DNA of 64,000 nt from Syncephalis fuscata (taxonomy: Eukaryota > Zoopagomycota > Zoopagomycetes > Zoopagales > Piptocephalidaceae). This document shows, piece after piece, positions 6,769 to 56,861 of the stretch; the first letter of the stretch is position 1; every line of letters starts with the position of its first letter. Both the position numbers and the translations under genes were made by a program. Below the pieces are notes generated by a model. That model made no database searches. It saw only the letters and a list, made by a program, of their open reading frames with translations, and had not been told where the DNA came from. Location of the stretch: positions 1 through 64,000 of the forward strand of contig JAHLTZ010000028.1 in assembly GCA_025786725.1 (NCBI GenBank), written 5' to 3'.

Positions 6769-8001
6769 TTAACGTGGCCGTAGTGCGTTGGCAGATGACC
6801 GTCGTCCATTGGACTTTTCATCAGACTGGACAATGTCACCGCGCATCTGCTCAGCCTCTGCCATAACATAGGCAATTTCCTCGCGATTAAGTATCCCGGG
6901 GAAGTCTTTATAAAGTACGGCGGAAAGATTTGACAATACGGCATCAAAATGAGAGTTATCAAAGACGAAAAGACGGCGATGAACTGCGCGCATACGAGTG
7001 CGATTGTAAGGTACACCTTGCACGGCGTGGTTAAGAAAACAGGTCATCATGCGATGTAAACGTTGTGGATCAATGCCATGGTAGTATTGGCGGATACGCA
7101 AATCAATGACATTGCGTTCAAAAAAGCGACGTGATAGAGCGTGTAATTCTTCTTCGTTAAGTCGATGAACGTGTCCATCTAACGGCAATGGTGATGGTGG
7201 CAATTGTTCTTCATCCGTATCAACGCTATTATAACCGGTGTTGATGGCTAGACCGGTAGTGTTACGTCGAACACTACTAAAGCTATTGCTGCTATGCATG
7301 GATGCTGACATGCTTCTATTATTGCTGGGCCTGTGAGATGTCGATGAAAATGATGAATGCGACGATGGTGACGAAACAGTTACTGGCAACATATTAGGTG
7401 ATGATGGATCTGACGAGGCTGGTGTAGGTAATTGGGTCATCTCCTGCTCATGTCGTTCAATCTCTTGTAGACGGGCAAGACGGCGTTGATGAAATGGACA
7501 GCCAGATGCCTCGGCTTCGGCCGTTGCTTGTAAAATGATATTTGAATTGGGATAACTACGGATACCACCAAAGCCGATTTCAGCGGCTAATGTATCGCTT
7601 TTACTTGCGGAATAGTCGACTGATGATACCATATCGTAACGTGTATGTTCGGCCACTTTAAGTACTACATCCGCCATTTCAGGCGCATGTCGTAATACTG
7701 CTTCGCGTAAATGACTAATAACTACATCAAATAGCTCGTGAGTGATATTATGGCGTCGGTGAGCACGTCGCATAGCCTCGCGATCGTAGCCAACGCCGCC
7801 AAGCGCGGAAACGACAAAATAACGAAACATTCGACGAAGTCGGTCCGCATTGATACCGACATAGTACGACTGTGTCACTGGATCTGTGATGTTATACTCG
7901 AAGAAATCATTGGCAATACGTAAAACAGTATCGTCATCGAGCAATGGTGTCATTGTATGAGCGACGGCCGGTGCTCGTGTTATACGACGTCCAGAGGCCA
8001 T
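6769..8001 (-). CDS. Tandem two-domain truncated (2/2) haemoglobin-like protein
   Basis: Haem-binding globin of the truncated (group I-like) fold, apparently duplicated within one protein (410 aa, single exon). Domain 1 (about residues 20-120) contains DFFEYNITDPVTQSYYVGIN, RLRRMFRYFVVSALGG and the likely proximal His in MRRAHRRHNIT. Domain 2 (about residues 290-390) repeats the plan: RRFFERNVIDLRIRQYYHGI, RLHRMMTCFLNHAVQG and MRAVHRRLF. Both domains have Phe where bacterial group I proteins usually have B10 Tyr, so ligand chemistry may differ. A Ser-rich linker separates them. I chose the ATG at 8001 because upstream in-frame sequence is hydrophobic low-complexity leader and the globin similarity starts just after MASGRR. 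A paralogue lies at 11880. Confidence 0.8.
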   Translation of the reverse strand: MASGRRITRAPAVAHTMTPLLDDDTVLRIANDFFEYNITDPVTQSYYVGINADRLRRMFRYFVVSALGGVGYDREAMRRAHRRHNITHELFDVVISHLREAVLRHAPEMADVVLKVAEHTRYDMVSSVDYSASKSDTLAAEIGFGGIRSYPNSNIILQATAEAEASGCPFHQRRLARLQEIERHEQEMTQLPTPASSDPSSPNMLPVTVSSPSSHSSFSSTSHRPSNNRSMSASMHSSNSFSSVRRNTTGLAINTGYNSVDTDEEQLPPSPLPLDGHVHRLNEEELHALSRRFFERNVIDLRIRQYYHGIDPQRLHRMMTCFLNHAVQGVPYNRTRMRAVHRRLFVFDNSHFDAVLSNLSAVLYKDFPGILNREEIAYVMAEAEQMRGDIVQSDEKSNGRRSSANALRPR

Positions 8002-10599
8002 AGTGTTTTGTATTTTCTTTTCTTTAGTGTTGATAAAAATAAACAAAAAGTAATAATCCAATAACGCAGTAAATGATGATAGTTGCGAAAGTTTTAGAAT
8101 GTAGAAATCAGTGGAAAACAAATCTAGCACACATATACGTACAAGTCGAGATCTAAGGACAAGATACTTGATTAGTAAAAAAGATATAACGAGATGTGCC
8201 AAAAAGAATCAATCAACATCGGCTATAACATTCTGCAGAGAATTATATGAGACACCGTGACAGCGAGGGCGGCGGATTGCGGCTGCATATCCGAGACATT
8301 CTCATTGAATCATTGCGATCTCATATATTCCCGTATATGCATCCAAGTATTCTACGCTCCGTGCCTTGGCTCAAATGACGACTTACCTGATCGACGCGGC
8401 GTATATGTTAAAGTTACAATAATTGAAGTGTTGATGGCTACGAAATAATAGTATTATGGCAATACGAGTGCCGTAGTAGCCGTAGCCGTAGCCGTAGCTG
8501 TAGTTGTAGCAGCAATAATAGTGTAAATGAATAAACAGACCAAAAATAATACTGACGTTACTATGGGAATAATAACGAAACAACAAGATTAACAATGGTT
8601 TGGGAATAGCGACGGACCTTTGGCTAGTGGTCTACTATTTAACAAAGCGTAAAACCTTTTTTTTCAGCCTTGGCTAAATTAGGTTGCCGCCAAAGATGTC
8701 TTAGGAACTTGTCGAAATGATTTACTGAACCGCGCAAAAACTCTAATCAGTGCAGTAGTGACTGTTTCTACCATATAGCGTAGGATGTTGCATTTTTGTA
8801 CCACAAGGGTCGGCGAAATAAAACTGCACAGTAGCGAATAGGCGCAATGGGCAGCACATTTCGTCCTACTGCCATGTCGGTACCATTTACAGAAAAGTGG
8901 CTGATGCCTTGTACATAATACGCTGCAAAGGCATATTAAGCAAATGTATGTGCGTACATGTACACACTTGCTGATGATCGATTGCCTAAAACCAATGGCT
9001 ACCTTGTCAATAAAAGATGTATACGTACCACACATACAGAGTGGCACGGCATAGACAAAAAGTTTTTTCTTTTTTAAGCATGACCCTTTTGCAGGGTGCA
9101 GCCAAATAGCCATCATACTGGCCATAGGTTGAACTATGGTTACACGTACATCCCAAATGACTTTACTGCACTACTACTTTAAAGCGTTGCCATTACTGTT
9201 ACTTTCCTTCTAAAGACCGTCGCCTTGAACAAGGTAACAAGACAATACTTACCGAGTTCGCTCTTGAATGCTGAATCATACGTTATTTAACAGCATTCTA
9301 CTAGAAATGTATTCGATTATTTTGTGATCAGGGTACACAGTTTGAGTCAAAATAGGCTATAGAAGCTGAATAGATTATACAGACTGGCAAAGTAACTTGT
9401 TCAACGTCAGATTGCGTTTAGTTAGCTTTTAAGTATTAAAATTCAACGCGTTGTTGCAGATATTGGTATCTCTATCCCTTTATGTATTATTGATTGGCAC
9501 AAATGATAGTTGACGTCACCGCCCACCTCTGTACTGAGTACAAAGTTATCTACCTATCGCAATACTGACTGTATAATAAATATTAAATTGCGTTGTTGTG
9601 TAGACTTTTCATCCATTGGCTATTGGGTCTTAAAAGGTAGACGCTTTTTGTATTTAAAATACATAGATAACATATGCCAAATATAAAAGTACACATGATT
9701 AAATATTTATAATAAGGTACAACTTTACACTAGTATTATTTTATTGTTACTTATGCAAGTCGTATTGCACTGCAATAGATCTGCAATAGTTGTACGCTAT
9801 AAGTGTGCATACATATACGTAGAATAGAATGTATTCAGTAAATAATAAAGTGATATGCAATAGAAAATAATAATAAAAAATTGTATAAGCAGTGAAGATT
9901 GCAGTATGTATGCCTCAATGATTAGAATAAGCAAAAAATATTTGATAGTAAGTAGAAATAAAGTTAAACGTATAATAATTCTAGAGAATATGCTATTAGC
10001 ATGTAATAGAATAATAAACAATAAAGTGATAGGCAATGAAAAAGTATGAATAGTGGCGAGTAAACTATTGTGTGGATTCATACATGTATATGCGCATAAT
10101 AGGTGTGGTGAGCAAACTAAATCAAATTACAGCTAATACAGTTATTAAAAAATGCATAGCAGTTTTATATAGAACACGGCTAATAAATTTGATATTAATA
10201 TACAGTAGAAAATGTGAAAGGACAAGATCATAGATGATGGTATTAAGCTATAGTGCATGTAATGCGATAAATAAAATGTATTGAAGTATATGAACAATAA
10301 AATGTGTCCGCTATATTATAAAATGATATATAGCAGTGTGGGGCATATTTGGGATGATATAAATGAATAAAGTATATATGTGTACTGAATATATGCATAC
10401 TGGATAATAAATCTATGCTGATGAGTATTTTAAGCTTTAATGTAACTCACCACCCACCATCATGCTCAATAATTGAATGTTTAGTTTAACTGTGTGAATA
10501 TCATTAAACTTTGTCGCTTGATCCAAAAGTTACGCTAAATATGTAATGTTAATGCATAATAATAATACAAATAAATAAGATATTGGTATATATGTGGCA
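8002..10599. other. Intergenic, AT-rich, no supported gene
   Basis: About 2.6 kb between the two-domain globin and the FYR gene fragment. A (GTAGCC)n-like simple repeat lies near 8468-8500. The longest ORF (8679-9125, minus) has no recognisable motif, a composition unlike neighbouring proteins, and no splice support. From about 9700 the sequence is very AT-rich and passes into a TIR-element fragment (10190-10540). Confidence 0.5.
10190..10540. repeat. Partial copy of TIR element family E
   Basis: The stretch running through ATACTGAATATATGCATACT, CTCACCACCCACCATCATGC and CATTAAACTTTGTCGCTTGA matches the terminal part of the elements at 12926-13972 and 15663-16709, in the orientation of 15663-16709. 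Only one terminal region is clear. The other end fades into AT-rich sequence, so this is a decayed or truncated copy. Confidence 0.6.
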
Positions 10600-11879: not shown

Positions 11880-12551
11880 ATGCCTCCAATAGCAATGTCT
11901 AGTGGCAAATCAGCCGCTTTGGATCTTACCCCTGTATTACCAGATGCCGACGTGGTTCGACTAGTTGCTCGTTTCTACGAGATTAATTTAACGGATCCAA
12001 TGCTTACCCACTACTTTATTCAATCACAAATGTCATCGCTACGTGCAAAATTTGCTCGATTTGTTGTGCATGGACTTGCTGGTCTACCGGTTGATCGGCC
12101 ACGTCTACGTCGTATCCATCGTCGTTTGGGTATTGGAGATATTGAATTTGCTGCGTGTGCTAAAAACCTGCTTACCGCTTTAGCCGAACAGCCAGCTCTT
12201 GAAACAAAACTAAAAGATCAGCTTTTACTATTGCTATGGGAGCTTGAAGCGGATATTACCGTTGAAGGTGGCGTACCTTTGCTTGATGGGTCTGGCGAAG
12301 GTTCGAATACGAAAGGGTCACATCATGGCACAAGCTCTCATCGTACACGCAGCTATTCTACATATGGACTTGGTTCGGGTACGGGATCTAGTTCAGGGGC
12401 CGACAAAAGCGGCGATATAATTTACTTGGATGATTTACAAGAGATTGCCGCGCAACGTAATACCACAGCGACATCATCTATTCCCCAAAACAGTCCGCTG
12501 CTATTGTCGCCAAGAATACGACCTGGCTGGCGCAGTTTAATCCCATGGTAG
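11880..12551 (+). CDS. Truncated (2/2) haemoglobin-like protein, single domain
   Basis: A 223-aa single-exon protein. Residues about 15-110 hold one truncated-globin domain: DVVRLVARFYEINLTDPMLT, SSLRAKFARFVVHGLAG and the likely proximal His in RLRRIHRRLGIGDIEF. Here the B10 position is Tyr (RFYEI), unlike the two-domain paralogue at 6769-8001. The C-terminal half is Gly/Ser/Thr-rich and ends LLLSPRIRPGWRSLIPW. The last ~450 bp including the 3' flank are duplicated at 17328-17779. It lies between a truncated FYR copy and a transposon-like element, so the locus has been rearranged. Confidence 0.8.
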   Translation: MPPIAMSSGKSAALDLTPVLPDADVVRLVARFYEINLTDPMLTHYFIQSQMSSLRAKFARFVVHGLAGLPVDRPRLRRIHRRLGIGDIEFAACAKNLLTALAEQPALETKLKDQLLLLLWELEADITVEGGVPLLDGSGEGSNTKGSHHGTSSHRTRSYSTYGLGSGTGSSSGADKSGDIIYLDDLQEIAAQRNTTATSSIPQNSPLLLSPRIRPGWRSLIPW

Positions 12552-43758: not shown

Positions 43759-45138
43759 ATGTCTTTAGTAGGCCGCAGCAGTCATAGTAATGTTAAACGA
43801 TCACTTTGGGCATACCGAAGAACCCATCGTGTATTGACGACGTATGCAATGCAACATGCACCGTTGAAATCGCCGCTTGCATTGCCCGCACTACGAACAA
43901 GTAGCAGTAGTAGCAGTGGTGGTGGTCATCTATTAGGTACTCATCCGGCAATGACTATGAAAATATGCAATGCACCTTTGACGGCACTGGCCACCAGTAC
44001 GCCATTACGTAAAGAATTCCAGCCACGACAACGCTCTAATGCATCTACGGTCACTATTTCGGTAGAGCCATGTATTCAGTGTCGTTCTGACCCACCATCT
44101 ACTCCGGCTAGCACTATGGCTGATGGCTCTTTTTCCAATGCGTTGACATCTACGTCTAATGGCGAGGATCGTCTTTCATTTGAAGATGAAGGTGTTATGC
44201 GTTCGACGTTCTATCGACGTCCGCTTCCTAAACATCTTGTGGCGTTTGATTCGACTGAAGGCAAGCAGTTTTTTAGACGTTGTCTTGATAAAGGCCACGC
44301 TGAAGGTTACTTTCACCTTGCTGATAACTTTTCTTCCCAATCAGAACCAGCCTGTAAGTGGTTATATACACATTTAATAATGACATCTAACATTAATCTA
44401 TTTGTTTGATATTGTTTTATCTAGATTGTGGACCTAGTTCATTGGCTATGGTACTGAATGCGTTGCAAATTGATCCACGTCGACGCTGGAAGGGGGCATG
44501 GCGATGGTAATCGCTTAATACTACTTGCTTATTATAAGTACTAATGTTGGTGTTTTAACAGGTATACTGACGAACTCCTTGAAAGCTGTCTACCTATGTC
44601 TGTAGTAAAGCGTAAAGGCATTACATTTTCACAGTTTGCTTGTAAGTTATATTGAATATGGCAGTGTATTAGAACTGACAATATGATGATAATAGGTATA
44701 GCTAGTGGGCATTGTGAAGTGGTAGCTAAAAGACCCACTGAATTTACATTTGACAATTTTGTTGCTGATTTGCGCCGTGTAACAAGTCGTATGGATAACG
44801 GCGAGCATATGGTAGTCAGTTATGCTCGTGCCACCTTAGGCCAGACGGGGGATGGTCATTTCTCACCTATAGGTGCATTCTATCCAGGTCGGCCACGTCA
44901 GCCTAACAAACCCAAACAACAGGATAATGAACCTATTCATTGCGAGGAAGATTATGCATTGGTGTTGGATGTGGCTCGATTCAAGTATCCTAGCTATTTC
45001 TGTCAAACACGGCTACTTTACGAGGCAATGAAACCCATCGACCGTACTACCGGTAAATGTCGCGGCTGGTTTCTTCTAAGACCGCAACAGCACTCGCCAG
45101 TCTATGGATGTGCTAGTGTGTGTAAGGATTGGGCCTAA
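43759..45138 (+). CDS. PCS: Phytochelatin synthase
   Basis: Gamma-glutamylcysteine dipeptidyl transpeptidase (EC 2.3.2.15), which makes metal-chelating phytochelatins from glutathione. Four exons: 43759-44353, 44425-44506, 44562-44641 and 44696-45138, all in phase. The catalytic core starts at [20 protein letters not shown]. The papain-like triad is visible: Cys in [20 protein letters not shown] (split by intron 1), His in [11 protein letters not shown] and Asp in [13 protein letters not shown]. Other family blocks are [27 protein letters not shown] and [11 protein letters not shown] Ser-rich extension of about 150 residues at the N-terminus could be a targeting or disordered region. The variable Cys-rich C-terminal domain of plant enzymes is absent. 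Likely cadmium/zinc/copper tolerance. Confidence 0.95.
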
Positions 45139-46144: not shown

Positions 46145-49100
46145 TTATGCTGTATTTACAAATAAAGATATTATATGTTATATAATTAATGAATAAGCCA
46201 TCAATATATAATGCTACTTACTGCCTATTAATATTAATATATTGATACCATCAGTAAATAGCATAGTTAATATATAGTCAATTAATATATAATATTACTT
46301 ACCGACTATTAATATTAAACAATTGATACAATCAATGAATAGTATAGTTAATGTATAGTCAGTTAATATATAATGTTACTTACTGACTATTAATATTAAA
46401 TAATCGGTACAATCAATAAATAGCATAGTTAATGTATAATTAATTGATATACAACAATACTTACGATCTATTAATAATAAACAATTATCACAATAGTAAA
46501 TAGTGTTAATGTATAATCAATTAATATACAATATCACTTACTCTCTATTAATATTAAATAATTGGCACAATCAGTAAATAGTATGTGATTAATGTATGCC
46601 AGTTGATATATGACGTAACTTACTGCCTATTAATATTAAATTATTGATACACACAATATATGATATGTAATTAGCCGATAGTCGATTAATATACAATACT
46701 ACTTACAAACTATTAATATTAAGTAATTAGTACAATAAGTAAATAGCAGTTAATATAGTCAAGGGATACACAATATAACTTACCACCTATTAATATTAAA
46801 TAATCGGTACAATTAGTAAATAGCAGTTAATATACCATACTACTTACTATCTATTAATATTAAAATGATTGATACCATCAATTAATAGCATAGTTAATGT
46901 ATAGCCAATTAATATATAATACTACTTACGACCTATTAATATTAAGTTATTGATGCACGTAGTAGGTAACATGTGATTAGTACATAGTCGATTAATATAA
47001 AATGCTACTTACATCCTGTTAATAAGGTTGTAGATGCACATAATACATAGTATATAATTAGCCAATGGTTAGATAATATACAATGCTACTTACTGGCTAT
47101 TAGTATTAATATATTGGGATCATCAGTAAATTGCGTAGTTAATATATAGTCAATCGATATACAATATAACTTACTAGCTATTAATATTAAGTTATTGATG
47201 CGCGCAGTAAATAGGATAATTAATGTATATTCGATTAATATACAATATTACTTACTAGCTATTATTATTAAATAATTGGTATAATTAGTAAATAACATAG
47301 TTGATATGCAATACACCTTACCGGCTATTAATATTAAACAGTTGGTATCATTAGTAAATAGCAGTTAATATAGAAGCAATCAAATATATACTATCATTTA
47401 CCCTCTATTAATATTAAATAATTGATACAATTAATAAATATTATAGTTAATGTATAGTCAGTTAATATACGATACAACTTACCGCCTATTAATATTAATT
47501 AATTGATATCATCAGTAAATAGTATAGTTAATATATAGTCAACTAATACACAATATAACTTACTATCTATTAATATTAAATAATAAGTACAATCAATCAA
47601 TAGTATGGTTAATGTATAGTCAGTTAATATACGATACAACTTACTATCTATTAATATTAAATAATAGGTACAATCAATCAATATTATAGTTAATGTATAG
47701 TCAGTTAATATACAATATAACTTACCGCCTATTAATATTAAACAATTGGTACAATCAATCAATAGCATGATTAATGTATAGTCAGTTAATATACGATACA
47801 ACTTACCGCCTATTAATATTAAATAATTGGTACAATCAATAAATATTATAGTTAATGTATAGTCAGTTAATATACGATACAACTTACCGCCTATTGATAT
47901 TAAACAATTGGTACAATCAATTAATAGCATAGTTAATGTATAGTCAGTTAATATATAATACTACTTACGACCTATTAATATTAAGTTATTAATGCACATA
48001 GTAGGTAACATGTGATTAGTACATAGTCAATTAATATATAATGCTACTTACATCCTGTTAATAAGGTTGTAGATGCACATAATACATAGTATATAATTAG
48101 CCAATGGTTAGATAATATACAATGCTACTTACTGGCTATTAGTATTAATATATTGGGATCATCAGTAAATTGAATAGTTAATATATAGTTAGTTAATATA
48201 CAATATCACGAAGGGGACGTTGCTAGCCCAGTAGGTAAGGCAGCGTTTCCCGAGCTAAAGGCTTTAGGTTCAAACTTCGGTTTGAATCAATCCTTAAGTG
48301 GAAAATCCCCCCCTCCAGTTTTCTCTAATTAACAAATTGCAAACCAGAACCCAATAAGTAGGTCCGGAAACAAGACCTTGGCCAGAATAGCCGAGGAAAA
48401 CCCAATTGGGACCAACTTCAAGAGAATAGTGCTGTGTAGCACCATTCAAAAGAAGATGGCCCCCGCGTGGAATCTACATGAACTAGATTTGCGCAAAAAC
48501 GTGGCAGTCCACCCGTTAAAAGTTTGGAAAAGTCCAAATATAGTGGGAAGCAGCGCAAATTCTTTAATTATGTGCAGCGGGGGCTCACAAGCTTTTCAAA
48601 ATAAAATAATATACAATGCTACTTACTCACTAATATATCAAGTCGTTGACACATAGTATATGACATATAATTAGTCCATAGTCAGTCAATATACAATGCC
48701 ACTTACTGCCTATTAGTATTAGGTTGTCGATACACATAGTGCATAATATATAATTAGCTAGTGTTCAATTAATATACAATAACTTACATGCTATCGATAT
48801 TAAGTTATTGATATACATGGTGTATGGTATAAAATTAGCACATAATTAGCTAATACATAATACACCTTACACACTATGGCATTAAGTTGTTGATACATAT
48901 AATACATAATATAGAGTTAGTTTATAAATTATCAACACGTAATTCTAATTACAGTCTATTAATATTAAATTGTTCGTGCGCATGATGCATAACATGTAAT
49001 TAGTGAGTAATCAATTAATATAAAATATAACTTACATTGAGCTAATATTAAATTATTAATAAATACAGTACATGGTACATAATTAATGTGTGTTCTATTA

Positions 49101-49375
49101 ATATATAATAGGACTTACCGCCTATTGATATTAAGTTATTGATAAACACAGTACATAATATATAATCAGTGAGTAGTTATTTAATACGCAATACCACTTA
49201 CCCTCTATTATAATAGTTGTTTAAAAATACTGTTAGTAAATATAATGCTATGATATGTTTATTAATATTGCAACATACTATCACGACGAACTAAAGCTGG
49301 GTTAGCATCCACCATGGTTGTAACGGCCACAAGAGCCACGACAATGATGCAAACGGCGGCAATGGAAAGCTTCAT
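46145..49375 (-). CDS. Microexon gene 1: secreted cysteine-rich peptide, 35 exons
   Basis: Exon 1 (49375-49279, 97 nt) encodes signal peptide MKLSIAAVCIIVVALVAVTT..MVDA and NPALVRRD with an RR processing site; donor GTATGT. Then come 33 microexons of 3 nt (one of 6 nt, 49036-49041), each between an acceptor (mostly TTAATATTAATAG) and a GTAAGT-like donor. Their lowest plus-strand bases are 49202, 49119, 49036, 48953, 48871, 48788, 48707, 48627, 48133, 48052, 47969, 47888, 47807, 47726, 47645, 47564, 47483, 47402, 47322, 47256, 47175, 47094, 47023, 46930, 46848, 46784, 46707, 46624, 46542, 46465, 46384, 46303 and 46222. The terminal exon starts at 46149 and the TAA is at 46145-46147. Exon 1 fixes phase 1; in that phase no stop occurs and the product is 67 aa with mature cysteines spaced CX3C-X12-CX3C, a spacing also seen in alpha-hairpinin peptides. 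In phase 0 there is a stop. Function is unknown; effector, antimicrobial or signalling roles are all possible. No transcript evidence was available. Confidence 0.82.
48210..48608 (+). mobile_element. tRNA-derived SINE, copy 1
   Basis: About 400 bp inserted in an intron of microexon gene 1, antisense to it. The head has pol III A-box-like TAGCCCAGTAGGTAAGGC and B-box-like GGTTCAAACTTC. The body is about 80-90% identical to 54471-54880, and the 3' end is A-rich (AAAATAAAATAAT). Flanks AATATACAATATCAC and AATATACAATGCTAC could be a decayed target-site duplication, though they also match the array monomer. Confidence 0.8.
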
Positions 49376-49740
49376 GGTGATATTGATTTGTTGAGACAAA
49401 CAAATAAAAGAGATAGTAGAGTGTGGTTGGTATAGAATGGAGAGTAGTGTGTGTATTGCAGATAGTAGAGTGTGATGATGATATCGCAGTTGGTTGTGTA
49501 TATTTTGTGGGTTATTTATACTTACGGCAATACTGAGATGCTAGTATACTGTAGTATATGAGGTACACTATTGATGTGTAATATGAACCAATAAAACAAT
49601 CCAAACAACAGTGGTTTGAGGTGCACATGTACTAATAGATTCATGATGTGATAGAATGCTTTCCAGCCTTGATTTCAACCTGCTTGATCTTGATTTCAAC
49701 CCGCCCGGTCTTAGTTTCTATTTGCTCGGCATTTACACAA
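49376..49740 (-). promoter_or_regulatory. Promoter region of microexon gene 1
   Basis: A TATAAATA box on the minus strand (49513-49520) lies about 140 bp before the ATG, and the same arrangement exists in gene 2. The leader between them is CT/CA-rich and contains CTACTATCT repeats, conserved in both copies. Confidence 0.6.
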
Positions 49741-50880
49741 ATAACGCAGTAATTTCAATGAGCAGTACATATGCGATAAAAATAGGCATGTTATCCTGTA
49801 TTTTTTTGTTACGCCGTCTAACTATTTGGTGAAAACAAGATATTGTTTGGCTTTGTAAAACGACAATGATGTCTTTGCTGCCATTTCTACTGATTCAGTC
49901 CTCAATATCTGCATGCATGCAAAATAGCACATAACCTGCCCGGTCTTTACTTCAATCTGTCAGTTATTCGCACGAATGATGTAACAATGGTAATAATCCG
50001 CATATATGCGATAAAAATAGGCATGTTATCCTGTATTTTTTTGTTACACCGTCTAACTATTTGGTGAAAACAAGATATTGTTTGGCTTTGTAAAACGATA
50101 ATGATGTCTTTGCTGCCATTTCTACTGATTCAGTCCTCAATATCTGCATGCATGCAAAATAGCACATAACCTGCCCGGTCTTTACTTCAATCTGTCAGTT
50201 ATTCGCACGAATGATGTAACAATGGTAATAATCCGTATATATGCGATAAAAATAGGCATGTTATCCTGTATTTTTTGTTACATCGGCTAACTATTTGGTG
50301 AAAACAAGATATTGTTTGGCTTTGTAAAACGATAATGATGTCTTTGCTGCCATTTCTACTGATTCAGTCCTCAATATCTGCATGCATGCAAAATAGCACA
50401 TAACCTGCCCGGTCTTTACTTCAATCTGTCAGTTATTCGCACGAATGATGTAACAATGGTAATAATCCGCATATATGCGATAAAAATAGGCATGTTATCC
50501 TGTATTTTTTTGTTACACCGTCTAACTATTTGGTGAAAACAAGATATTGTTTGGCTTTGTAAAACGATAATGATGTCTTTGCTGCCATTTCTACTGATTC
50601 AGTCCTCAATATCTGCATGCATGCAAAATAGCACATAACCTGCCCGGTCTTTACTTCAATCTGTCAGTTATTCGCACGAATGATGTAACAATGGTAATAA
50701 TCCGTATATATGCGATAAAAATAGGCATGTTATCCTGTATTTTTTGTTACATCGGCTAACTATTTGGTGAAAACAAGATATTGTTTGGCTTTGTAAAACG
50801 ATAATGATGTCTTTGCTGCCATTTCTACTGATTCAGTCCTCAATATCCGCATGCATACAGAATAGCACACAACACTGACG
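49741..50880. repeat. 235-bp tandem repeat with two-unit higher-order pattern
   Basis: About 4.7 units of ~235 bp; GCGATAAAAATAGGCATG recurs near 49773, 50008, 50242, 50477 and 50711. Full units alternate between a type with CCGCATATA plus TTACACCGTCTAAC and a type with CCGTATATA plus TTACATCGGCTAAC, so the amplified unit was a dimer of about 470 bp. The paralogous place upstream of gene 2 (57190-57370) has one diverged unit only. Confidence 0.85.
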
Positions 50881-53188: not shown

Positions 53189-56100
53189 TTATGCTGTATT
53201 TACAAATAAAGATATTATATGTTATATAATTAATGAATAAGCCATCAATATACAATACTACTTACGGCCTATTAATATTAGTATATTGGTGTACACAATA
53301 CATGGTATATAATTAGCGCATAAACCAGAAATATACAATATAACTTACCTTCTATTATATTAAGATGTTGTTATACATGGTACATGGTGTAATTAATTTA
53401 TAGCAGAAATACACAATTCTACTTACGACCTATTAATATTAAGTTGTTGGCGCACATAGCACATCGTATACAATCAGTGGATGATCAATTAATATATAAT
53501 ACCACTTACAAACTATTAATATTAGACAATGAATACACATGGTGCATCGTATACAATTAGTGAATGGTCAATCAATGTGCAGTGCCACTTACAATCTATT
53601 ATATTGAGTTGTTGATACACACAACACATGGTATATAATTAGCCAACAGTCAATTAATATACAATATCACTTGCCTCCTATCATATTAAGTTGTTGATGT
53701 ATACAATACATGTTACATAATTAGTTAATAGTTAATCAATGCATAATACAACTTACTGTCTATTATATTAAGTTAATTCATACAATAAATAGCATGTAAT
53801 TATTTATAGTCAATTAATATACAATATCACTTACCATCTATCATATTAAGTTGTGATGTATACAATACACGTTATATAATTAGTCAATAGTAAATCAATA
53901 TATAATACAACTTACTACCTATTATATTAAATTATTGATGCACACAATGAATAGCATGCGGTTAGTGCATGATCAATCAATATACAATACCACTTACAAT
54001 CTGTTAGTTTGTTAACGCATACATTACATAGTGTATAATTAGTGTATAGTTCATTGATATACAACACCACTTACAATCTATTAATTTGTTAACATACACG
54101 GTACATAGCATGTGATTAGTATAGTCAGTTAATATACAATGTCACTTACCCCCTATTAATATTAAATAGTTGGTACAATCAATCAGTAGCATAGTTAATA
54201 TATAATTAATTAATACATAATACAACTTACGGCCTATCAGTATTATATAATCAGTACAATTAATCAATAGCATGTAGTTAGTAAGTAATCAATTAATACA
54301 TAATACAACTTACAACCTATTAATATTAAGTAATCGGCATCATCATTAAATAGCAAGTTAATGTATATTCAACAAATATACAATACCACTTACATTCTAT
54401 TAATATTAAATAATTGATATCATCAGTAAATATCATAGTTAATGTATAGTCAACTAATATACAATATCACAGGGGGGGACGTTGCTAGCCCAGTTGGTAA
54501 GGCAGCGTCTCCCGAGCTGAAGGCTCCGGGTTCAAACCTCAGTTTGAATCAATCCTTAAGTGGAAAATCCCCCCCCAGTTTTCTCTAGTTAACAAATTGC
54601 AAACCAGAACCCAAAAGTAGGTCCGGAAACAAGACCTTGACCAGAATAGTCGAGGAAAAACCCAATTGGGACCAACTTCAAGAGAATAGTGCTGTGTAGC
54701 ATTATTCAAAAAGAAGATGGCCCCCGTGTAAAATCTATATGGACCAGATTTTGCGCAAAAACGTGGCAGTCCACCCGTTAAAAGTTTGGAAAAGTCCAAA
54801 TATAGTGGGAAGCAGCGCAAATTCTTTAATTATGCGCAGCGGGGGCTCACAAGCTCTTCAAAATAAAATAAAATAAATAATATACAATATCACTTACTAT
54901 CTATTAATATTAAATAATTGGTATTATTAATAAATTGTATAGTTAATATATAGTCAACTAATATACAATACCACTTACTCCCTATTAATATTAAATAATT
55001 GGTATTATCAATGAATAGTATAGTTAATGTGAAGTCAGTTAATATATATTGATACTTACTGCCTATTAATATTAAATAAATAATACCACCAGTAAATAGC
55101 AATTAATATATAGTCAGTCGATATACAATACCACTTACTATCTATTAGTATTAAATAATTGTTACAATCAGTAAATAGTATGTGATTAGTAAATAACCAA
55201 TTAATACACAATACAACTTACAAACTATTAATATTAAATAATCGGTACAATAAATAAATAGTATAGTTAATATATATTCAGTCGATATACAATACAACTT
55301 ACGATCTATTAATATTAAGTAGTTGGTAAAGTCAGTAAATAGTATAGCTAATATATAGTTGATTAATACAATACCACTTACTCACTATTAATATTAAATA
55401 ATTAGTACAATCAATAAATAGCATAGTTAATGTATAGTCAGTTAATATACAATACCACTTACAGCCTATTAATATTAAATAATCAGTAAATCAGTAAATA
55501 ACACGTGATTAATGAGTAATCAATTAATATAAAATACCACTTACGCTCTGTTAATATTAAATAATTGGTACAATCAGTAAATAGCATAGTTAATGTATGT
55601 TCAGTCAATACATAATGCCACTTACTGCCTATTAATATTAAATAAATAATACCATCAATAAATGGCATAATTAACGCACAATCAGTTAATATACAATGCA
55701 ACTTACTGCCTATTAACGTTAAATTGTTAATCACAAAATATGCAATATGTAATTAGCTAATAGTCAGTTAATATACAATGCCACTTACATCCTATATCAT
55801 CAAGTTGTCGATACACATAATAAATAGTATGGTGTGAGTGCTAGTCAGTTAATATACAATCCAACTTACCATCTATGACATTGGATTATTGATAAACACA
55901 ATAAATCATATATAATTAGTGCATAGAAGTTAATATGCAATAAAAATTACCCCCTATTACAGGAAATTGTTAATACCATCAGTAAATAGCATAATTAATG
56001 TATAGTCAATCGATATACAATGCCACTTACTGCCTATTAGTATTAAGTTATTGATACACATAGTGCATAATATATAATTAGCTGGTGTTCAATTAATATA

Positions 56101-56861
56101 CAATAACTTACATTCTATTGATATTAAGTTGTTGATATACACGGTGCATGGTATAACATTAGTTTATAGTCAATTAATACATAATACACCTTACCCTCTA
56201 TGGCATTAAGTTGTTGATACACACAATACATGGTATATAATTAGTTTATAAGTTAGCAATATGTAATAGCACTTACGACCTATTATTATTAATTTGTTGA
56301 CACACATGGTGCATAACATGTAATTAGCTAATGTTTTGTTAATATACAATATAACTTACATTTCGCTAATATTAGGTTGTTAATGAACAGAGTATATGAC
56401 ATACTATTAGTATATGTTCTATTGACATGTAACACAACCTACCAGCTATTGATATTAATTTATTGATGCAACCAGTAAATAACGTAGTTGATATATAGTC
56501 AATTAATATGTGATATCACTTACAAACTATTAATAGTAAATAGTTGGTACAATTAGTAAATAGCATGTAATTAGTGAGTACTTGATTAATATAAAATACT
56601 ACTTACCTTCTATTAATAGTAAATGATTGGTACAATCAACAAATAGCATGTGATGATTAGTGCAGTCAGTTAGTACGCAACACAACTTACTGCCTATTAT
56701 AATCATGATTTAGGAATACTGTTAGTAAACAAAATTCTATGCTATATTTATTAACATTTCAACATACCACGACGAACTAAGGCTGGGTTAGCATCCACCA
56801 TGATTGTAGCGGCTATCAAAGCCACAATGATGGTGCAAACGACGGCAATGGAGAGCTTCAT
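53189..56861 (-). CDS. Microexon gene 2: secreted cysteine-rich peptide, 40 exons
   Basis: Paralogue of microexon gene 1. Exon 1 (56861-56768, 94 nt) encodes MKLSIAVVCTIIVALIAATI..MVDA and NPALVRR. There are 38 microexons, all 3 nt except 56360-56365 (6 nt, the same ordinal position but two as in gene 1). Lowest bases: 56691, 56607, 56524, 56443, 56360, 56277, 56195, 56112, 56031, 55951, 55870, 55789, 55707, 55626, 55545, 55463, 55382, 55303, 55222, 55139, 55060, 54979, 54898, 54394, 54314, 54231, 54150, 54075, 53998, 53916, 53835, 53757, 53675, 53593, 53510, 53427, 53349 and 53266. The terminal exon starts at 53193 with TAA at 53189-53191. In the exon-1 phase the chain is open and gives 71 aa with seven mature cysteines, CX2C-X3-C-X11-CC-X3-C-X5-C. 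The donor after microexon 53675 is GCAAGT; others are GTAAGT, GTAAGG, GTAATT or GTAGGT. Mature sequence and Cys pattern differ from gene 1 although signal peptide and 3' end match. Confidence 0.82.
54471..54880 (+). mobile_element. tRNA-derived SINE, copy 2
   Basis: Same family as 48210-48608. The head has A-box-like TAGCCCAGTTGGTAAGGC and B-box-like GGTTCAAACCTC, and the tail is AAATAAAATAAAATAAATAA. It is flanked by an exact 15-bp repeat, AATATACAATATCAC (54456-54470 and 54879-54893), consistent with a target-site duplication. It lies in an intron between microexons 54898 and 54394, antisense to the gene. Confidence 0.82.

Follow-up and report, generated by a model that had tools for sequence, protein, structure and literature searches.

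Within a 64,000-nt stretch of the Syncephalis fuscata genome (the window; positions 1 to 64,000 of contig JAHLTZ010000028.1) we analysed a minus-strand gene, gene 1, that very probably belongs to a multigene family encoding secreted, cysteine-rich peptides, with the mature part divided among single-codon exons. S. fuscata is a zoopagomycete of a mycoparasitic genus (PMC10386755, PMC6784888). Gene 1 spans 49375-46145 and is predicted to consist of a 97-nt signal exon, an array of 33 microexons and a terminal exon; we refer to genes of this build as array genes. The microexons are 3 nt long in 32 of 33 cases and 6 nt in the remaining one, are spaced at about 81 nt, and take the form (A/T)TAATAG-NNN-GTAAGT or a close variant. 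Joined, the exons give a 204-nt coding sequence. The 67-residue peptide that it encodes begins with a signal-like segment, has a dibasic VRR site and carries four cysteines in its mature part (C-x3-C-x12-C-x3-C). From start to stop, 94% of the gene is intron. The features of gene 1 are as follows, with microexons placed by the decoder described below.

49376..49560, minus, promoter and 5' leader, with TATAAATA around 49515 (from sequence)
49279..49375, minus, exon 1 (97 nt), signal peptide, PALVRR, phase-1 donor GTATGT (decoder and donor pattern)
49202..49204, minus, microexon 1, AGG
49119..49121, minus, microexon 2, GCG
49036..49041, minus, microexon 3, CTCAAT (6 nt)
48953..48955, minus, microexon 4, ACT
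48871..48873, minus, microexon 5, TGT
48788..48790, minus, microexon 6, CAT
48707..48709, minus, microexon 7, GCA
48627..48629, minus, microexon 8, TGA
48205..48600, plus, insert resembling a short interspersed nuclear element (SINE-like insert), in the intron between microexons 8 and 9, antisense to gene 1 (copies in 12 other array genes)
48133..48135, minus, microexon 9, CCA
48052..48054, minus, microexon 10, GAT
47969..47971, minus, microexon 11, GTC
47888..47890, minus, microexon 12, GCG
47807..47809, minus, microexon 13, GCG
47726..47728, minus, microexon 14, GCG
47645..47647, minus, microexon 15, ATA
47564..47566, minus, microexon 16, ATA
47483..47485, minus, microexon 17, GCG
47402..47404, minus, microexon 18, AGG
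47322..47324, minus, microexon 19, CCG
47256..47258, minus, microexon 20, CTA
47175..47177, minus, microexon 21, CTA
47094..47096, minus, microexon 22, CCA, triplet as in unit 9, start of a repeated block (decoder and pattern)
47013..47015, minus, microexon 23, GAT, preceding intron identical to that before unit 10
46930..46932, minus, microexon 24, GTC, preceding intron 95% identical to that before unit 11
46848..46850, minus, microexon 25, ATA
46784..46786, minus, microexon 26, GTG
46707..46709, minus, microexon 27, TTT
46624..46626, minus, microexon 28, GCA
46542..46544, minus, microexon 29, AGA
46465..46467, minus, microexon 30, ATC
46384..46386, minus, microexon 31, TCA
46303..46305, minus, microexon 32, TCG
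46222..46224, minus, microexon 33, GCA
46145..46149, minus, start of the terminal exon, CA and then stop TAA, 3' end shared with intronless paralogs

The decoder scores acceptor and donor sequences only, allows any exon length from 1 to 45 nt and follows no frame rule. The units it returned for gene 1 number exactly 33 and extend from 49204 to 46222; plain pattern matching yields the same 33, and stricter decoder thresholds retain 32 of them. The first-pass annotation, made by a model from the letters of the window, had proposed an exon 1 and 33 units read in one phase into 67 residues with four cysteines, and the decoder recovered this model independently. The stop it had placed in the terminal exon is the TAA at 46147-46145, preceded by the CA of that exon. 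A second gene in the window has the same build.

53189..56861, minus, gene 2 (decoder)

Its exon 1 (56861-56768, 94 nt) is followed by 36 decoded microexons, all but one of them 3 nt long and the remaining one 6 nt, and by a terminal exon from 53193; two gaps of about 160 nt may conceal additional units. On the minus strand of the window, which carries both genes, the spacing acceptor-3 nt-donor occurs 60 times versus 6 on the plus strand, while any other acceptor-donor length up to 24 nt occurs 0-5 times.

The same spacing recurs across the whole 28.95-Mb genome, where we counted 1727 strict 3-nt units versus 8 units with 0-2 nt and 23 with 4-12 nt; control patterns read backwards gave 0, 3 and 14, respectively. 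A donor lies exactly 3 nt past a strong acceptor in 498 of 510 cases in 21 loci and in 0 of 27 on the opposite strand, using scoring matrices trained on the 3-nt units of the window. Given 15.8 strict units per decoded gene (21 genes), the 1727 units translate into an estimated ~109 array genes, assuming that all strict units sit in such genes. Counts from stricter anchors are lower, with 42 exact matches to the terminal acceptor-plus-stop motif and 56 exact exon-1 donors genome-wide. Although the exon-1 donor pattern allowed N of 0-15, each of its 56 matches in the genome has N = 1 or 4, which is phase 1 relative to the VRR codons. For the promoter and exon 1 (49200-49480), 40 copies, query included, were scored out of 270 candidates, with identities of 84-100%.

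The array follows a conserved promoter and a signal exon whose end lies directly behind VRR. Decoded array genes contain 23-42 microexons each, and most of the introns between them measure 57-92 nt, with an insert enlarging some. Strict and laxer decoder runs covered 17 of 24 models, the other 7 having no terminal motif in the fetched stretch; of six added loci, four were decoded, and L047 and L050 had the terminal motif out of reach. Under the strict decoder, 486 of 506 exons measure 3 nt and 18 measure 6 nt, and 15 of the 17 genes are open from the ATG to the stop in the terminal exon. The laxer decoder, applied to 21 genes, allowed exons of up to 45 nt, and all 676 internal exons came out at 2-7 nt (3 or 6 nt in 669). 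The internal exons of micro-exon genes are characteristically multiples of 3 nt. A gene is counted among them when most of its internal coding exons are 36 bp or less, as is the case here.

Do the tiny exons code? The first-pass annotation had read them as coding in one phase and in genomic order, and family-wide tests of stops, shuffles and paralog matches agree with that reading. In the predicted phase, 709 codons from 23 genes contain no stop, whereas 10,000 within-gene shuffles of exon order give 43.8 ± 4.9 (minimum 26); the same codons include 121 cysteines versus 58.5 ± 5.4 under order shuffling. This 23-gene set omits L007 and was built from input matches restricted to a donor at 3, 6 or 9 nt, a restriction absent from the later decoders. 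Four genes added afterwards have no stop in 161 phase-1 codons. In 19 non-redundant genes (the near-duplicates L001, L011, L016 and L017 also omitted), none of 564 junctions between adjacent units creates a stop, while junctions that skip one unit do so in 50 of 545 cases and larger steps in 41 of 526, 28 of 507 and 35 of 488. Since the exon-1 donor is in phase 1 and nearly all exons are whole codons, internal exons start at codon position 2.

These data bear on whether the arrays could be non-coding satellite DNA, in which AG and GT happen to lie 3 nt apart within an 80-nt tandem repeat. The arrays are indeed tandem repeats, and a single ancestral unit could have passed its spacing on to all of them. 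In a satellite the reading frame would be unconstrained, which is not what the stop counts above show. Moreover, the triplets vary between conserved splice signals, introns of up to 100 nt fall into every length class modulo 3 (281, 167 and 211 for remainders 0, 1 and 2) but 669 of 676 exons are multiples of 3 nt, and a signal exon and a stop stand in register with the array. We regard a satellite as next to impossible and return to the array genes as coding genes.

Support for coding also comes from intronless relatives. Of 20 fetched loci, 19 (including P0001) are single open reading frames (ORFs) with the family signal peptide; most have VRR, the mature parts are rich in cysteine, and the region of the stop is mostly similar. 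In the 16 ORFs that we aligned (L034, L038 and L044 were left out), six cysteines of the mature part never vary. Reading the tiny exons in order in phase 1 yields the same kind of peptide. At the other end, the arrays of 17 of 24 models finish with AATACAG, then CA, AA or GA, and then sequence resembling TAATCGATGG; the intronless genes have this same 3' end. We scored the spliced mature peptides of 15 of the 21 array genes, those that decode open, against the 19 intronless ones: the summed score is 802, as compared to 494 ± 22 (maximum 563 of 300) for exon-order shuffles and 598 ± 21 (maximum 660) for residue shuffles. Gene 1 by itself scores 57, the highest of its 300 shuffles 49, and 11 of the 15 genes beat their own shuffles at P < 0.05. 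In a genome search, the two best places for the L015 product are intronless ORFs (residues 1-67 and 1-60; 64.6 and 64 bits), which rank above the signal exon of L015 itself (53.2 bits). For the products of gene 1 and L048 the top match is the signal exon of an array gene, and the better intronless matches to the three products are 56-65% identical over most of the query. The intronless genes may be the source of the arrays or processed copies of them.

The array could alternatively be one long intron, with exon 1 joined to the terminal exon and each AG-NNN-GT acting as a ratchet point, or persisting as a remnant, whose triplet is lost. Judged from the phases, exon 1 and the terminal exon would join in frame and reach an immediate stop, and Drosophila has ratchet points that leave nothing in the mRNA (PMC8605326). 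Such an intron would leave unexplained why 709 codons lack stops, why cysteines are in excess and why the joined triplets match intronless mature peptides, nor would it be expected to evolve as described next. We consider it highly improbable and favour microexons that are retained and translated.

Comparison of close paralogs points the same way. Gene 1 and L001 have 17 differences in 102 microexon bases, 125 in 2428 bases of intron interior, 1 in 94 of the signal exon and none in 132 of GT/AG; 12 of 34 codons carry a residue change, none a silent one, and the cysteines are kept. Among seven close pairs, picked by us, microexons change faster than introns in six, at P < 0.05 for gene 1/L001, L005/L013, L010/L017 and L045/L046 and barely so for L048/L049 (0.045). 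Four more distant pairs, likewise of our choosing, differ at 58-66% of exon bases and 26-32% of intron bases.

Could the arrays be decaying pseudogenes of the intronless family? With the laxer decoder 6 of 21 models are unclean, and exon 1 of L007 breaks the frame, as such decay might produce. Against it, 15 of 21 genes (laxer) or 15 of 17 (strict) are open, and the residue-changing differences between gene 1 and L001, with cysteines and GT/AG retained, do not look like decay. Pseudogenes therefore seem a very poor fit for the family as a whole. Satellite DNA, one long intron and pseudogenes were all rejected on the coding, paralog and divergence evidence, in favour of a family of peptides that would be assembled from single-codon exons.

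Several observations weigh against this interpretation. The gene models are predictions from DNA sequence alone. The first-pass annotation had taken the openness of gene 1 as non-trivial; phase 0 does contain a stop (one, TGA at 48629), although order-shuffled exons of gene 1 are stop-free in 31% of trials (P 0.31), and for gene 2 the corresponding value is P 0.10. We thus discarded the openness of gene 1 by itself as coding evidence, and the weight rests on the gene family and the intronless paralogs. With the laxer decoder and the four added loci, no more than 15 of 21 genes stay open throughout, which implies misread units in some models or decay of some genes. The decoder models hold one phase-1 stop in 541 codons, in L017; L007 has a 96-nt exon 1 and a broken frame, and is probably a dead gene. 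In the divergence comparison, the faster exon change of L008/L016 is not significant, L006/L011 goes in the opposite direction (exons 2/93, introns 73/1934), and L017 and L045, each part of a significant pair, do not decode cleanly. L004, L014, L048 and L049 do not beat their own shuffles against the intronless peptides. The genome search with the products of gene 1, L015 and L048 found no nearly identical intronless copy, and proof of splicing by way of a reverse-transcribed copy is therefore missing. Thirty-four splicing events per short peptide would seem costly and error-prone. Finally, function is deduced solely from the signal-like segment, the cysteines and the lifestyle.

How might such transcripts be processed? 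The ordinary spliceosome would remove the introns by intron definition, one after the other, because an acceptor and the next donor 3 nt apart could hardly be bound together. Each step would leave one codon and rebuild the next donor, much as in recursive splicing but with 3 nt staying behind. For the 1-nt exon of Arabidopsis, sequential removal of this kind has been suggested by the authors who described it (PMC4674806). The array introns have the same kind of ends as a putative intron of an ordinary gene in the window (44642-44695). Units may also be included variably, so that splicing as described would yield many peptides per gene. Nearly all units are frame-neutral, skipping would preserve the frame, and the exons of schistosome micro-exon genes (MEGs) can be alternatively spliced (PMC10399815). 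Junctions that skip one unit carry no fewer stops than those of larger steps, and selection for open skipped products is not evident. Such alternative splicing is unlikely, if less so than the explanations rejected above.

At the DNA level, whole units are probably gained, lost and exchanged. The block CCA-GAT-GTC occurs twice in gene 1, with the introns before GAT 100% and those before GTC 95% identical; L048 and L049 are six whole units apart (42 versus 36); and the best-matching units are mostly out of register with distant paralogs and mostly in register with L001. Turnover of this sort keeps the frame by construction. Crossover or copying between similar introns could add, remove or swap codons with the frame intact, because the introns share one phase and the exons are whole codons, and such exchange may promote diversification of the mature peptide under selection that probably relates to contact with the host fungus. 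Whether ~100 peptides are built codon by codon through serial recursive splicing, with one-codon exons serving as a diversification device (exon shuffling at the level of single residues), is a proposal on which we are evenly divided.

The closest known systems are the aphid bicycle genes and the schistosome MEGs; in the latter, up to 75% of a gene consists of exons of 3 to 36 bp (PMC10399815). The first-pass annotation had held that the exons of known micro-exon genes are mostly longer; the schistosome ones do reach 3 bp, and what is still new is the unbroken run of one-codon exons. Both families are multigene and encode highly variable secreted proteins (predicted as such here). In S. fuscata, unlike in schistosomes, nearly all internal exons consist of one codon and follow one another without interruption, 23-42 decoded units per run, the introns are repeat-like and intronless paralogs exist; its peptides are cysteine-rich, whereas schistosome MEG 2.1 isoforms are described as disordered (PMC10399815). 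Two protein searches matched S. fuscata alone (9 of 9 matches at E up to 10, 14 of 14 at E up to 0.01), with no homology to schistosome MEGs or aphid bicycle genes among those matches. Aphid bicycle exons exceed one codon and are not arrays of repeated introns, in which they differ from the S. fuscata arrays. Bicycle genes average ~17 exons, and megacycle genes have more than 100 microexons (PMC9168663); as here, the family is large and evolves fast, its products are putative secreted effectors, and its many internal exons are small, with almost all of those in bicycle genes beginning at codon position 2 (PMC9168663). With Drosophila ratchet points the arrays share an acceptor directly before a donor, which the splicing step rebuilds (PMC8605326). 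There the mRNA keeps nothing or a longer exon, while in S. fuscata one codon would be kept at each of ~33 steps. Arabidopsis APC11 and Fusarium CYP621A indicate that plant and fungal spliceosomes can include exons of 1 nt, although those are isolated exons in conserved genes and the S. fuscata units stand in arrays. We set aside the SP7 effectors of arbuscular mycorrhizal fungi, which are described with a conserved intron before the first repeat and not with microexons (PMC11333574). Among the titles and abstracts listed by searches of open-licence papers in PubMed Central, which mostly leave out subscription papers, none reported such Syncephalis genes or runs of one-codon exons. We conclude that the architecture is that of a micro-exon gene family at its limit, and there is a strong case that the one-codon array is new.

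As for function, the signal-like peptide, the dibasic site, the fast-changing cysteine-rich mature part, the ~100 copies and the mycoparasitic lifestyle suggest that the peptides are perhaps, on balance, aimed at the host fungus or at strain recognition. A hydrophobic, signal-like N-terminus is present in the decoded gene models. AlphaFold2, run on the intronless P0001 without an alignment, gives a helical model whose mean predicted local distance difference test (pLDDT) score is 66; Foldseek found no convincing solved match to it (best E 2.8), and Pfam gave no convincing family, with hits to single members only (best E 0.0096). Alpha-hairpinins follow a CX3C-CX3C spacing rule in a helical hairpin, which the cysteine spacing of gene 1 resembles. 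Matches of the intronless profile in PDB to vicilin hairpinins and BWI-2c are weak and non-significant (E 2-10), as is the hepatocyte growth factor match ranking above them (E 0.48). If spliced as predicted, the genes would represent extreme fragmentation, with runs of 23-42 one-codon exons in ~100 genes of a single fungus. They would be a test of how spliceosomes cope with exons too small for exon definition, a natural example of exon shuffling at single-residue scale, and a large secreted peptide family of a mycoparasite that standard gene models miss. Thanks to the intronless paralogs, both where the arrays came from and what their introns are for can be tested directly.

Some further features of the family and the window were recorded. 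The 6-nt exon (49041-49036 in gene 1) recurs in other loci, mostly early in the array, and its acceptor reads TATTAG instead of TTAATAG; with the 3-, 6- or 9-nt donor restriction, 26 units of 6 nt were filled in across the 24 models. Annotated S. fuscata proteins P0002-P0005 carry the family signal and have dissimilar mature parts, and may be mispredicted models of array genes. The SINE-like insert (~395 nt) lies in introns of gene 1 (48205-48600), gene 2 (54475-54862) and 11 other array genes, with copies 88-96% identical to that of gene 1 and, from our strand reading of the matches, antisense to the host gene in 13 of 13; L007 is a 14th locus, with fragments only. An 11-nt direct repeat, TAATATACAAT, flanks the gene 1 copy, and part of the copies may have been inherited together. 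The insert shows a putative resemblance to tRNA-like A and B boxes; an ARAGORN scan for tRNA found none and an Rfam scan was without result. A 235-bp tandem repeat (4.7 copies, 97% matches, 49765-50873) lies directly upstream of gene 1. A phytochelatin-synthase-like gene (43759-45138) is apparently interrupted by short introns, including the putative 54-nt intron mentioned above, which we read as running from GTAAGTTATATTG to TAATAG. Two open frames with a bacterial-like globin domain are located at 6772-8199 (minus) and 11880-12548 (plus).

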